39,016 bases of DNA from a virus: IMG/VR virus record IMGVR_UViG_3300010399_000021, positions 1 to 39,016 of that record; one strand, given 5' to 3'. Below are positions 3,750 through 18,698 of this stretch, piece by piece. The notes under the pieces are model-generated. The model was given only the letters and a program-made list of their open reading frames with translations. It had not been told where the DNA came from and ran no database searches. Made by a program: the position numbers and the translations under genes. The first letter of the stretch is position 1; each line of letters opens with the position of its first letter.

Positions 3750-4132
3750 TATATTTATTTGTTGCTTGGCTAATCGCCGCTATTATATGGCTTAAATATC
3801 AGGCTTATAAGGCAGCAAAAATTAATGCGATAGTCATTAATTCGCTGTTTGCTGCACATGCCTTTAACGGCACAATAGAGGAGCGTGCTTACCGTTATAT
3901 CGATAACATAGCACACCTAAGTTCAGGCCAAGACTATGAGAAGGTTGTGGGGGCGTTATGTAACGTCTACGGTGTAAGGCTTATGATGGACGATGAAGGG
4001 TACTTGATATCAGAGCGAACACGTCGCGCACTTGCTTTGAACTCTGCACGGGAGATTGAAGAACTTGCCAACCACGTCGCTATCTCTGAGAGCCGCTCGG
4101 AACCCCTGCCTGGCCAACAACCACGGGGTTAG
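3746..4132 (+). CDS. Small membrane protein (128 aa), unknown
   Basis: Start GTG 3746 overlaps the TGA of the previous gene (GTGA), indicating translational coupling; TTG 3722 is also open. It begins with a transmembrane helix (VIYLFVAWLIAAIIWL) followed by a soluble, mostly helical cytoplasmic part (AREIEELANHVAIS). Its last 53 bp overlap the 3' end of the convergent minus-strand gene, with no terminator between them, so the two transcripts are antisense to each other at their ends. Function unknown; probably works with the exported protein upstream. Confidence 0.65.
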   Translation: MIYLFVAWLIAAIIWLKYQAYKAAKINAIVINSLFAAHAFNGTIEERAYRYIDNIAHLSSGQDYEKVVGALCNVYGVRLMMDDEGYLISERTRRALALNSAREIEELANHVAISESRSEPLPGQQPRG

Positions 4133-6083
4133 CCATTCCAGCCAGCTCACGATACGCGCGCTCAAGCTTACTGACTTGTGACTCCCTTGATTCACCGCCG
4201 CGTGGTAGGTAGCCAGCTACAAATGCCCTAATTTCTGATTCGGGGGCTTGCGCGCCCGTGCGTGAACGAAGGATAACGTCACCGATATTGAACAGTGCGG
4301 CTTCAATATCGGTAGTGCCGAGTAAGTTACCACCCAGCGCCGAACCACTGCCAGGTACGGCGGTTTTCACAATGTCGCCTGATTCGATGGCCTGCTCTAA
4401 CACACCTAAGTCTTTAAGTGCGTTTTGCGCTCGGTTCGCCGTCTCAAGCTGCGTAGCGTTAAGGCCGCTATCAGCTGGCGCGTAGATTTCTTGGAGGGCT
4501 TGATACTGACTGATATATTTTTCAGCGTTTTTAGGATCTCGTTGGATGTCGGCCATAAGGTTTTCGCGCGGGTATGGGCTGCCCTGCTGTCTCGGTTGTT
4601 GGGTAGGACTGTTAATCGCAGTCGCTAAATCAGGCGGTTCGGTTGGAGAGGCCAGTTGGTTTTGAACAGCGTTTATGCCTCCCGAGATTAGCGGGGCGGC
4701 TACTCCTACCCTTCCTGCGACCCCTCCAGCAGTGTTAGGCTTTGGCGTTCGAGTGGCACCGGGAAGTAGGCCGTTTGGTGCCTTTGATGCATTATTGCGT
4801 AGTGCTTGTCCACCATAACGTGCGAGTACGGGTTGGGCTAGGTTCGCACCCGCCGATGTCAGGGCGCCTACGAGGCCGCCACCGTTGTTCATACTATTAA
4901 ACATGTTGCCGCCGCGTCCGCCCGCAGTAAGTTCGTTTTGATCGGCCTCATCAATTATCTTGCTCACTCTGACGAATGGGGATTGGGCGCTTCTTAAGTC
5001 CTGTACACTCTTAGCGCCCATGACACGACCATCAACGTACTGTTGCCAGCTCGGATCGCCTGGTTTTAGTGAGACTAGTTGTTCACGCACTTCGGGTGTA
5101 AGAACGCGGGAAAGATTCTTGTCTGCCCCAGCACCACGATATAACCTGTCTTCAACCTCGTCGTGTAGTGCCTGTAAAGCCTTAGCCTGGTCGCTGCGCT
5201 CGGCCGTGGCTAGGCGTGCGTTTCCGCCTCGCCCCGTAAGGTCGGCGATACGTTTTTCAAGGGCTTTTAGGACGTCCAGGGCGTCGTTAGGGTTCGCAGC
5301 GTTAAGGTATGGTGTTGGGCCGCCTTGGAGCCGTCTCAATTGTGCATCGACGATGCTAAGCACGCTTTTAGCGTCTTTTTCAACGACTCCGTTAAGTGCT
5401 AATGCGTCTTCGGCAACACGTCGTAGGCCGTCCGTGTTCACGCCCGCTGCTCCATCCACGCTCTTGGCGACGGCCTTGTTGATAATGCCCCCGGAGCCTG
5501 TAATTGCACGCCCGATGCGTTCTGCATCCTCTGGGCTGGTAATGCCATAGTCGGCAAGCTCACCCACGGTTTTCGCTGGGTTCGTTTGTCGTGCAATTGG
5601 TGCGGGTACGGTTCCGTACTGGGACAGTAAAGCTTTATTACCCAGTGTTTGCATCTTACCTTGTAGGCTCGTCTTTAGTGGTTCCTGGCCGATCTGTGGC
5701 AGCGCGGCCTTGGTAGTATCCCCAGCGATGTTAGTTGCAGCAGCCGCACCACCCTGAGCAGCCGCGCCCCTACCCGCACCAAGTATTGCCTTAGTAAGCC
5801 TAATAGGGCCAGCACCAAATACACCGCCAAGCACTGCTTCTTGGGCCACATTCTTACCAGGGTCATCGCCAGTAATCGAATTTTCGATTGCCTCACCCAA
5901 ACCACTGCCAAGAGCTGAACCGCCGCCCGCGCCGAATATACCAAGTGGAAGGCCGGCGATACCACCTAAAATTCCACCAGCCGTAGAAATCTGGTCAGTC
6001 CAAAAGTCTTTTGGTTTTTTCTGCTGAAAATATGCTCGAGGGTCGCCTACATCGGGCATCGCATCGAATTTTAAACCAGCCAT
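4080..6083 (-). CDS. Large Ala/Gly-rich internal virion (DNA-ejection-type) protein (667 aa)
   Basis: The N-terminus holds a long Gly/Ala/Leu-rich hydrophobic stretch (about residues 30-65, ISTAGGILGGIAGLPLGIFG) and a second near 95-120, followed by a helical middle and a hydrophobic segment near 450-470. Large proteins with membrane-seeking N-terminal glycine-zipper segments and long helices are typical of podovirus ejection proteins that form a conduit through the host envelope. The start ATG overlaps the stop of the upstream gene by one base (TAATG on the minus strand). The assignment rests on composition and the absence of any tape measure in this genome; no family was identified by motif. 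Confidence 0.6.
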   Translation of the reverse strand: MAGLKFDAMPDVGDPRAYFQQKKPKDFWTDQISTAGGILGGIAGLPLGIFGAGGGSALGSGLGEAIENSITGDDPGKNVAQEAVLGGVFGAGPIRLTKAILGAGRGAAAQGGAAAATNIAGDTTKAALPQIGQEPLKTSLQGKMQTLGNKALLSQYGTVPAPIARQTNPAKTVGELADYGITSPEDAERIGRAITGSGGIINKAVAKSVDGAAGVNTDGLRRVAEDALALNGVVEKDAKSVLSIVDAQLRRLQGGPTPYLNAANPNDALDVLKALEKRIADLTGRGGNARLATAERSDQAKALQALHDEVEDRLYRGAGADKNLSRVLTPEVREQLVSLKPGDPSWQQYVDGRVMGAKSVQDLRSAQSPFVRVSKIIDEADQNELTAGGRGGNMFNSMNNGGGLVGALTSAGANLAQPVLARYGGQALRNNASKAPNGLLPGATRTPKPNTAGGVAGRVGVAAPLISGGINAVQNQLASPTEPPDLATAINSPTQQPRQQGSPYPRENLMADIQRDPKNAEKYISQYQALQEIYAPADSGLNATQLETANRAQNALKDLGVLEQAIESGDIVKTAVPGSGSALGGNLLGTTDIEAALFNIGDVILRSRTGAQAPESEIRAFVAGYLPRGGESRESQVSKLERAYRELAGMANPVVVGQAGVPSGSQR

Positions 6084-6901
6084 TACGCGTTCCCCATGTT
6101 TCTTAGATACGGAGTATTTGTTCTCAATAGAGGAATGTTTGGTTGAGCGGCGGGACTTTCAGCCGCAGCGCTTCTTCCTGTTCCCCAGACGAGGGCGTTA
6201 TAGATATCAGCGTCTACTTTGCCTGGGTCATACCCAAAGTCATCACCAACAAAGCCAAGTGCTTGACGGGCACCGGCGTCCCCAGCATTAGCCATTTCTT
6301 GTAACACGGTACGGAATGACTGTCCCTTCGATTGAGCGTAAACCGCTGCACTTATTGGGTTACCGGCAGAATCAAAGAAGTTAAAGCCCTTGTCACCCCG
6401 CTGAACAGATCGTACCCCAGCGACACTACCGGCGGCTGCACCTGCACCCCCAGTTGTGCCTCCGCCGAAGCTTGGCATAGCGGCCGCCGCTTGTGACGCC
6501 CTGAGCTGCTGTTGGAATTGTCGTTCTTGCTGCTCACGGTCTAACTCTGTTTGACGTAGTGTCTGTGCGTACTTATTCTGGTCAAGGTTGATACTATTCA
6601 AAGCATCACTAAGAGAACGTTGGTTTTCATTCTGTGACGTTCGTACACGAGCTACGGCAGGTAAGAACTGACTCGATGTGTATTTAGCCTGCTCACCTAG
6701 AGGAATACCCGAGAATCCCAATCCACGGCTTCGTGCACCTGAAAGGATGTCGTCAAAAGCCTGGGTCTGTTGACCCTTTAATCCTTCAATTTCTGCATCG
6801 GCTTGTGCCGGAAGGGCTGCAATGCGCTCGTTAATGGACTGTTTTTGAGGATTATAACTGGCATCGAGCTCGCGAAGAATCTCGTCCAATCCGCGAGCCA
6901 T
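6083..6901 (-). CDS. Helical Gln/Ala-rich virion protein, probable ejection protein (272 aa)
   Basis: First gene of the two-gene minus-strand operon. The N-terminal half is a long amphipathic helix/coiled coil rich in Gln and Arg (RQTELDREQQERQFQQQLRA), followed by a Gly/Ala hinge (SFGGGTTGGAGAAAGSVAG) and a smaller C-terminal domain. This resembles the partner ejection proteins of short-tailed phages. Transcription comes from a divergent promoter (6951-6980) that shares its sequence with the promoters of other virion genes, supporting late expression. Exact function inferred. Confidence 0.6.
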   Translation of the reverse strand: MARGLDEILRELDASYNPQKQSINERIAALPAQADAEIEGLKGQQTQAFDDILSGARSRGLGFSGIPLGEQAKYTSSQFLPAVARVRTSQNENQRSLSDALNSINLDQNKYAQTLRQTELDREQQERQFQQQLRASQAAAAMPSFGGGTTGGAGAAAGSVAGVRSVQRGDKGFNFFDSAGNPISAAVYAQSKGQSFRTVLQEMANAGDAGARQALGFVGDDFGYDPGKVDADIYNALVWGTGRSAAAESPAAQPNIPLLRTNTPYLRNMGNA

Positions 6902-12375: not shown

Positions 12376-12460
12376 GGTAGTAGGCAGTAGCGCTGGTAGC
12401 AACCGTACGTTCACTACCTCATTAGGTTTCGAGTTGCTACCAGCGCTACTGCCTACTACC
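12376..12460 (+). ncRNA. Long perfect hairpin (module 1, element A)
   Basis: A perfect 28-bp inverted repeat (12376-12403 with 12433-12460) with a 29-nt loop. Its arms contain GCTGGTAGCA, a 10-mer also present in the arms of the hairpin at 18418-18486, which likewise precedes a tRNA-like fold. Too long for an ordinary terminator and without a T-run; a structured RNA or RNase III site is more likely. A small AGCGGT-CTTT-ACCGCT hairpin (12327-12342) precedes it. Confidence 0.65.
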
Positions 12461-12478: not shown

Positions 12479-12515
12479 ACCCACAGATATTTCGCCCACC
12501 CGAGTATCTGTGGGT
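12479..12515 (+). ncRNA. Hairpin ACCCACAGATA/TATCTGTGGGT (module 1)
   Basis: Perfect 11-bp stem (12479-12489 with 12505-12515) and 15-nt loop, between element A and the tRNA-like element. Part of the same structured region; function unknown. Confidence 0.5.
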
Positions 12516-12532: not shown

Positions 12533-12759
12533 ATCGGCTAGGTAACTGGTCGCATGAGTGGCGGAATAGGTAGACGCTTAAGTGCCGTACTTGAAAATTT
12601 ACGGTCAACAAGGTATCGACAGGAATCTGTTGTGATACATGCAGGGTGACTACACGAGGGATAACGACATACCTTAATGGGTGAAGTTATACAAAATTAG
12701 TCACACGACTAATTTTACGCGGCAAATCCCTGCCCCATGCGACCAGTTACCTAGCCGAT
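12533..12759 (+). ncRNA. tRNA-Leu-like RNA with interrupted T-loop, closed by a 24-bp stem (module 1)
   Basis: A 24-bp perfect terminal stem (12533-12556 with 12736-12759) leads into a tRNA-like fold: acceptor GCATGAG/CCCATGC (12552-12558, 12734-12740, one A-C mismatch), D-arm TGGCGGAATAGGTAGACGC exactly as in tRNA-Leu, a long variable hairpin, and T-stem GCAGG/CCTGC (12641-12645, 12729-12733, the latter abutting the acceptor as in a tRNA). The T-loop holds about 80 nt starting TGACTACACGAG and ending CGGCAAAT. The anticodon arm is not canonical. GTGACTA (12646-12652) can pair with TAGTCAC further on. Not a normal tRNA; intron-bearing tRNA, Y-RNA-like mimic or a new class are the options. Confidence 0.6.
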
Positions 12760-12780: not shown

Positions 12781-12948
12781 ATGGAAAAAGATGTAGAATT
12801 AAGCGCTGTTCTCGAAGTCGAGAAGGCTTTGGCTGAATTGAGCTACAACGCAAAACACCGGGTTATCGAATTTGTTAGAGGACGAATTGAGTGGGAACCA
12901 GAAGGCATACAACAAGAGTTAGCGCCTGTAGCCGAAACTCTGGGGTAA
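12781..12948 (+). CDS. Small acidic protein (55 aa), unknown
   Basis: AAGGAGATAT directly precedes the ATG, an excellent ribosome site shared with the gene after the second RNA module (18721). The protein is mostly helical (VLEVEKALAELSYNAKHRVI, EFVRGRIEWE) with no Cys and no membrane segment. Function unknown. Confidence 0.65.
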   Translation: MEKDVELSAVLEVEKALAELSYNAKHRVIEFVRGRIEWEPEGIQQELAPVAETLG

Positions 12949-13661: not shown

Positions 13662-13762
13662 GTTTACCTGTAGCCTAAAGCGGATAAAAGTGAAGGTTTT
13701 GTTGGAGGTTGTTAAGGGAGCACCCTAACTTCTGCCATGTCCGCTTTAGGCTACAGGTAAAC
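13662..13762 (+). ncRNA. Long hairpin downstream of the HNH gene (element C)
   Basis: Perfect 23-bp inverted repeat (13662-13684 with 13740-13762) closing a 55-nt loop that itself pairs GTTA(A)GGG with CCCTAAC. It starts 4 nt after the endonuclease stop. It lacks the tRNA-like core seen at 12533 and 18493. Could be an mRNA-stability element, a leftover target-site feature of the endonuclease, or a structured RNA. Confidence 0.55.
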
Positions 13763-18417: not shown

Positions 18418-18486
18418 AGCTGGTAGCAGAGTAGGTGATTGGTCGGCCAATCATCGAAGGTGGCGTTAGGGTCGCTGCTACCAGCT
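18418..18486 (+). ncRNA. Hairpin with 12-bp closing stem (module 2, element D)
   Basis: AGCTGGTAGCAG/CTGCTACCAGCT (18418-18429 with 18475-18486) encloses a second hairpin of 9 bp (18434-18442 with 18447-18455) capped by TCGG. The arm 10-mer GCTGGTAGCA is shared with element A at 12376. Seven bases separate it from the tRNA-like element. Confidence 0.55.
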
Positions 18487-18492
18487 ACTAAG

Positions 18493-18698
18493 AATCATGT
18501 GTTGAGCGGGCGAGTGGCCAAGATAGTAAGGCAAGGTTACCAAGTCTGATAATCCTTTGGAAGCGGACGGTAGTAAGTTTCGGACACCTTTATGCGTGAG
18601 TGACTATACGAGAAAGCGGGCTTCATGCCCGTTGGGCGTTCAGGGACAGCTCTGTACGCCTCTCGGCAAATCTCACCTCGCCCTCCTAGCACATGATT
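18493..18698 (+). ncRNA. tRNA-like RNA with interrupted T-loop (module 2)
   Basis: Outer stem AATCATGTG/CACATGATT (18493-18501 with 18690-18698); then acceptor GGGCGAG/CTCGCCC (18508-18514, 18677-18683), U8-G9, D-arm GCC-AAGATAGTAA-GGC resembling tRNA-Gln or -Ser, and T-stem GTGAG/CTCAC (18596-18600, 18672-18676) with its 3' strand abutting the acceptor as in tRNA. The T-loop carries about 70 nt beginning TGACTATACGAG and ending CGGCAAAT; the insert folds as CGAGA/TCTCG closing two GC-rich hairpins. The D-loop lacks the conserved GG, there is no CCA end, and the anticodon arm is irregular. Same architecture as 12533-12759. Confidence 0.6.

Follow-up and report, generated by a model that had tools for sequence, protein, structure and literature searches.

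We describe a family of tRNA-shaped RNAs that is almost certainly new, two members of which (elements A and B) lie in a single virus record of 39,016 bases, hereafter the window. The genes of the window include a tyrosine integrase, an endolysin, HNH, Erf, a large terminase, a portal and a major head protein, a set which identifies it as a temperate tailed phage. Most phages carry one element; the window carries two. On the minus strand, at 4080-6901, it also has two long open reading frames (ORFs; 667 and 272 aa) that run opposite to most genes and have no PHROGs match.

Element A occupies positions 12533-12759, and all of its features are on the plus strand. The original prediction of a tRNA-Leu-like RNA with a split T-loop is borne out by direct reading of sequence and fold. 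Positions 12533-12556 are the perfect reverse complement of 12736-12759, which gives the predicted 24-bp closing helix and lengthens the acceptor-like helix outward. The acceptor equivalent is formed by the 5′ strand GCATGAG (12552-12558) and its partner (12734-12740), with a mismatch A12557.C12735. It is followed by U8 (12559, read from the sequence) and by a tRNA-Leu-type D-arm, GGCGGAATAGGTAGACGC (12560-12577), in which relatives show compensatory changes from GCG/CGC to GTG/CAC and others. A hypervariable middle (12578-12640) then takes the place of the anticodon and variable arms. It has no conserved sequence among relatives; in element A it contains hairpins at about 12584-12606 and 12613-12637 and ends with AT, the U48 equivalent. 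The T-stem (GCAGGG, 12641-12646, paired with CCCTGC, 12728-12733) abuts the acceptor as predicted, with 6 bp where 5 had been counted.

The T-loop of element A (12647-12727) is split. T54 (12647) is separated from GCAAAT (12722-12727) by an insert of about 74 nt (12648-12721), a little less than the 80 nt first estimated, at the place where uninterrupted relatives read TGCAAAT. The insert starts with GACTACACGAG (GACTACA) and is closed by a helix between CGAG (12655-12658) and CGCG (12718-12721), which has one A.G mismatch. It contains internal hairpins, among them one at 12693-12716. The folding energy of the whole element is -97.5 kcal/mol, compared to -57.9 ± 4.5 for shuffled sequences (z -8.9), and 0/200 shuffles were as low.

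Element B (18493-18698, plus strand), to which the original prediction had pointed from its position at 18493, is a genuine member of the same family. Its closing stem is again an inverted repeat (18493-18514/18677-18698). The D-arm (18516-18532, loop AAGATAGTAA) is of a non-Leu type, and the T-stem has 5 bp (GTGAG/CTCAC). The insert, TGACTATACGAG...CTCG, is closed by a CGAG/CTCG helix and followed by GCAAAT. Covariance-model (cmsearch) scores are 99.5 bits for element A and 61.5 bits for element B, both being among the model's training sequences.

The surroundings of the two elements contain further inverted repeats. A perfect 28-bp hairpin (GGTAGTAGGCAGTAGCGCTGGTAGCAAC, 29-nt loop) lies directly 5′ of element A at 12376-12460, and another hairpin lies directly 5′ of element B at about 18419-18486. 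Since GCTGGTAGCA/TGCTACCAGC are common to both, each element is preceded by a related hairpin. Between the first of these and element A is a perfect 10-bp hairpin, CCCACAGATA/TATCTGTGGG (12480-12514), and a perfect 23-bp inverted repeat with a 55-nt spacer is found at 13662-13762, in the same early region of the window. A small ORF with a Shine-Dalgarno-like AAGGAGATAT is located 3′ of element A and on the same strand (12781-12948, plus).

To define the family, we used the search pattern TGACTAYACGAG..CGGCAAAT, made of features common to elements A and B. It matched 32 viral contigs; 32/32 have a T-stem in the matching position, all have an acceptor-like stem in register, and most have the same D-arm. 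As an internal control, chance matches of a similar pattern in bacterial genomes gave T-stems of 0-1 bp. Besides phage contigs, four bacterial assemblies (Antrihabitans sp. YC2-6, Salipiger bermudensis, Arthrobacter sp. AL12 and one Patescibacteria-labelled MAG) hold members, and the distinct insert-bearing relatives now number about 60. Among Actinomycetota genomes, copies occurred in only 2/396, one of these being a relative with a canonical T-loop, and the strict pattern was found in 0/398 genomes of the phylum of a Selenomonad-like genome; the family is therefore mainly phage-borne. The Salipiger bermudensis copy (L286 568-1776) adjoins a Mutator-family transposase and host-like genes, with no obvious prophage.

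Covariation in the T-stem and closing stem, the check proposed with the original prediction, is strong. In an alignment of 36 sequences, two-sided changes occur at 15/20 pairs, with 7/7 in the acceptor, 2/3 in the D-stem and 6/6 in the T-stem. Paired cells reach 97.9%, compared to 78.1% in shuffled and 37.8-48% in slid controls, with acceptor positions that were chosen by best pairing but that nearly always adjoin the D-arm all the same; the covariation score is 0.574 versus 0.168 ± 0.012 in controls. The tRNA core is conserved in the family (acceptor helix, U8, A14-A15, G18-G19, U48 equivalent and T-arm). These elements could conceivably act at the DNA level, as attachment, replication or packaging sites; the long inverted repeat might suggest this, and so might the closeness of certain uninterrupted copies to terminase or to the ends of the genome. 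Such a role is highly improbable: strand bias follows the genes, covariation is G-U tolerant and drawn in a cloverleaf pattern, the equivalents of U8, A14, A15, G18G19 and U48 are conserved, and the elements sit in many different modules.

We then compared the RNA with known classes. ARAGORN called 0 tRNAs in the window and none at the element positions in 44 loci. No tRNA, tmRNA, YrlA/Y RNA or intron family of Rfam 15 matched at the elements, and no group I family was found on them up to E 10, a permissive Rfam scan giving chance matches only; thus no standard tRNA or group I model scores them. The D-arm has the tertiary-core nucleotides (GGCGGAATAGGTAGACGC and variants), and both window elements show the covarying acceptor, D- and T-stems and an insert between U54 and G55 with a 4-bp clamp. 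Instead of the canonical 7+5 bp with a free 3′ end, acceptor and T-stem are usually 7+6 bp, the acceptor being further extended in the insert-bearing form. A conserved anticodon arm (5-bp stem, 7-nt loop) is absent. Psi55 is near-universal in tRNA. The missing anticodon arm, UGC in place of UPsiC and an acceptor+T branch of mostly 13 bp argue against decoding.

Among the closest known RNAs is bacterial tRNA-Leu, which shares the D-arm sequence and geometry, U8, A14-A15, G18-G19, the U48 equivalent and a 7-bp acceptor adjoining the T-stem, but not the UGCAAAU or split loop, the usual 6-bp T-stem, the closing stem of up to 28 bp or the loss of the anticodon and variable arms. If the elements were simply phage tRNA-Leu genes in decay, or tRNAs with introns, this would account for the D-arm, the acceptor geometry and the copies found in tRNA arrays. 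However, neither ARAGORN nor the Rfam tRNA model calls them, they have no anticodon arm, and covariation indicates upkeep and not decay; we regard this explanation as barely credible. Two RNAs, L109 2999-3161 (Bacteroides phage) and L268 ~1501-1623 (Actinomycetota contig), are tRNA-Leu-like and have a canonical T-loop, TTCGAGT; their middle is long, and an anticodon arm is not clearly recognisable in it. They are possible intermediates between tRNA-Leu and the present family.

Other non-decoding RNAs share parts of this design. Like tmRNA, the phage RNA combines a tRNA-like domain with other RNA in place of the anticodon arm, but it has no pseudoknots, reading frame or Ala acceptor and its T-arm is split. 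A true tmRNA on one carrier contig (L041) lies elsewhere, separate from the elements. YrlA and bacterial Y RNAs also contain a non-decoding, tRNA-mimicking module with D- and T-like arms. There is, however, no Rfam YrlA or Y RNA match, and the Ro (TROVE) protein is present in 0/32 carrier records. The tRNA-Gly of S. epidermidis has a UGC T-loop. The non-proteinogenic tRNA-Gly of the Staphylococcus cell wall has an altered elbow and T-arm and so escapes EF-Tu (PMC9976931, PMC4052509). In this it resembles the phage RNAs; it retains anticodon arms and has a changed G18G19, whereas in the phage RNAs GG is intact and the anticodon arm is gone. The open-access literature that was searched yielded no description of such an RNA. 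The class, derived from the tRNA fold and without match to any catalogued family tested, is apparently new, in agreement with the option of a tRNA mimic or new RNA class that had been put forward; covariation in homologues supports it.

A sister form of this RNA, equally absent from Rfam, has the same D-arm and T-stem and an intact, non-canonical T-loop, UGCAAAU. As this loop is intact, the insertion point of the window subtype can be placed between U54 and G55, or one base further along. The sister form counts at least 136 distinct copies, extracted with at least 6 of 7 acceptor pairs required, which biases its pair counts upward. Its carriers are phages of Leuconostoc, Lactobacillus, Enterococcus, Weissella, Brochothrix and Bacillus, and cultured phages with the TGCAAAT form include those of Weissella, Enterococcus, Latilactobacillus, Lactiplantibacillus, Brochothrix and Bacillus hosts. 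Lytic Leuconostoc phages carry an unannotated 86-nt copy that is 93% identical to a prophage region otherwise without match. In phage LN34 (L231 1501-1586) this match is confined to the RNA, which suggests that the RNA alone was recently transferred. The LN34 copy lies at the genome end in many lytic Leuconostoc phages.

In less constrained scans, nearly all inserts start with GACTATA, followed by a 4-bp helix that closes on the bases before GCAAAT. Their length varies from about 45 to 105 nt, too short for a group I intron, as had been pointed out for element A. The closing clamp is usually CGAG/CTCG, with two-sided changes at 3/4 pairs. Compensatory variants are CGAG/CTCG, CAGG/CCTG, CGAA/TTCG, CTAG/CTAG (twice), CTCG/CGAG and CTCC/GGAG, the CAGG/CCTG case (L242) having been read separately and outside the 3/4-pair count. 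L065 and L072 have unrelated middles, but their inserts share 79% identity and carry matching changes on the two sides of a stem.

The two forms differ also outside the loop. In the insert-bearing form, pairing continues past the acceptor: over the next eight positions (-1:73 to -8:80) it is 100, 89, 74, 89, 81, 78, 78 and 74%. The corresponding values for the uninterrupted form are 66 and 58, then about 37-47%, which is chance level. The insert-bearing acceptor helix is thereby lengthened to 12-26 bp in most RNAs, with a maximum of 28 bp. Judged from these sequences, the long closing stem and the split T-loop occur together. This is the main reason to consider the insert as a permanent structural arm, since a simple intron, added to an RNA that stays the same elsewhere, would give no reason to expect a long stem; we hold a permanent arm to be probable.

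The opposite view takes the insert for a tiny intron of novel type whose removal restores UGCAAAU; it is disfavoured and in our opinion unlikely. It would fit the constant position, the conserved ends with variable length, and an excision (GGT joined to GCAAATCC) that produces the exact loop of at least 136 uninterrupted relatives; the boundaries U^GACUAUA...CUCG^G recall the group I U...G rule. GACUANA moreover resembles the P7 'R' element of group I introns in tRNA genes, a hint already raised for element A. This hint found no support: a conserved P7 partner is missing for the GACTANA stretch, no Rfam intron family rises above noise, and the downstream TAGTC taken as its complement is part of the local hairpin 12693-12716 and is unconserved in relatives. 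Fewer than 105 nt cannot hold a ribozyme core, and the insert lies in the T-loop, not the anticodon loop. The insert ends pair with each other as a clamp helix, which, together with the lack of an anticodon arm and the differences elsewhere in insert-less homologues, weakens the intron-bearing tRNA first suggested. Finally, no pair with and without insert shares the same flank (40/40 flank-sharing pairs are within the uninterrupted form), and RNA ligase or RtcB is absent from most carriers.

Could the RNA be charged? A tRNA-Leu without anticodon and variable arms is still leucylated if A73 and the D/T-loop contacts are kept (PMC9976931). A minimal tRNA-Leu that is charged by LeuRS and kept out of translation would be compatible with the tRNA-Leu-like D-arm and with A73 in 72/136 uninterrupted copies. 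However, A73 is found in only 9/28 insert-bearing copies, and G55 abolishes the G18:U55 contact. Position 73 is paired within the long stem in 27/27 insert-bearing RNAs, so that this form has no free acceptor end. Leucylation as the main function was rejected, A73 being unconserved, and an aminoacylatable mimic is very unlikely.

We also examined pairing between the parts of the RNA. Kissing between the D-loop ATAG(T) and the insert ACTAT fits 20/27 distinct loops, versus 4.9 when shuffled; it is broken in L053, L276, L280, L282 and L284, and GACTATA is near-invariant, so this contact is suggestive only. Pairing of the middle with the insert was discarded, being no better than with mismatched partners (mean rank 0.45). 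No antisense match of at least 13 nt to the phage's own DNA was found on the opposite strand of the same contig.

The middle behaves as an exchangeable segment. In the sister form, identical 32-nt flanks surround unrelated middles (prophages L133, L135, L185, L203, L122 and others), and identical middles are found in unrelated flanks (100% identity between L158 and L185). One sister-form allele family retains its hairpin through compensatory changes. Insert-bearing L020 and L053 have near-identical flanks, closing stem and T-stem, but not the same D-arm, middle or insert. Judging from these alignments, recombination could use the D- and T-arms as handles. Middles exceed shuffles only slightly in stability (mean z about -0.7), no more than flanking DNA does, and arm variability could stem partly from relaxed constraint and ordinary phage recombination, not an arms race.

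The elements lie between genes and usually share the strand of the genes around them; for the insert-bearing form, the downstream ORF is on the same strand in 45/52 cases and on the opposite strand in 7. This setting is what a cis-acting leader or processing element would show, in which fold and long stem mark a cut site (RNase III or RNase P, as in tRNA punctuation) or stabilise the downstream mRNA with no independent role. An ORF with a Shine-Dalgarno-like site is often close 3′, and many uninterrupted copies, several of them in Firmicutes, lie between the late activator and the terminase small subunit. Such cis processing is the strongest rival and a serious possibility, if not a probable one. 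It is countered by the insert-bearing loci, which have no conserved downstream gene and lie in very different modules (after the integrase in the window, in tRNA arrays, beside terminase, beside RNA ligase); an exact D-arm and swappable arms would also be needless for a bare processing site. No conserved neighbour gene or protein partner of the insert-bearing form was found among the examined loci.

Two insert-bearing loci, L041 and L012, are inside tRNA arrays. L041 237-7524 (Patescibacteria AMOR_Bin_143), which looks like a large-phage contig, packs 23 tRNA genes and a tmRNA into 7.3 kb, and two insert-bearing elements are interspersed among these tRNAs. In L151 (IMGVR_UViG_3300021255_002652), an array of 15 predicted tRNAs, one called tRNA-Pyl (anticodon CTA), is found beside an uninterrupted element. 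RNA ligase is encoded in 4/40 insert-bearing and 4/39 uninterrupted records. In the 4 insert-bearing records the distance between ligase and element is 19 nt to 3.1 kb, and in two of them the ligase is the next or nearly next gene (post hoc Fisher p 0.0013, versus p 0.59 for the uninterrupted form). RtcB is also nearby in one of these carriers (G001), and RlaP in the Antrihabitans prophage. As 36/40 insert-bearing records have no RNA ligase match, a link to repair cannot be general, and RNA ligase, RlaP or RtcB, present in few records only, were dismissed as obligatory partners. The setting points weakly to the arena of tRNA damage and repair. Phage tRNAs are known to evade tRNA-cutting defences such as retron-Eco7 (PMC11555353). 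The present RNAs resemble them in being tRNA-shaped and, in some carriers, in being encoded within tRNA arrays or close to RNA-repair genes; those tRNAs decode, whereas the phage RNA here has no anticodon and any defence target is hypothetical.

The explanation we favour, though with slightly less than even confidence, is a phage-encoded non-decoding tRNA-shaped RNA in which the insert is a permanent arm and which may act in trans as a tRNA mimic. A decoy or mimic function taken by itself, for instance in an arms race over tRNA damage, is possible but doubtful. Comparison shows that the tRNA-Leu-type core is conserved, with an exchangeable cassette in place of the anticodon and variable arms; in the window subtype a second arm, with its GACUAUA start and 4-bp clamp, interrupts UGCAAAU between U54 and G55. 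In this model the conserved elbow would serve as a scaffold. The RNA would be transcribed together with the surrounding phage genes, and the long stem would fix or release its ends, possibly through RNase III-like cutting. It might then occupy a host or rival factor that handles or cuts tRNA, and the variable arms might change because the partner factor changes; both steps are guesses. A more speculative extension, which we think rather unlikely, is a fixed scaffold with one (middle) or two (middle and T-loop) swappable specificity arms, exchanged via the D- and T-arms, that counters or exploits tRNA-handling host factors.

Close to 200 distinct copies occur in unrelated phages; Rfam 15 has no entry for them and a standard tRNA finder overlooks them, which points to an unrecognised class of phage RNA. 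They indicate that the tRNA elbow tolerates an additional hairpin between U54 and G55. Among cultured phages, those of Leuconostoc, Lactobacillus, Enterococcus and Bacillus are carriers suited to functional work. If the arms are specificity modules, the family would bring a further layer, made of RNA alone, to the conflict of phages with their hosts or with one another.
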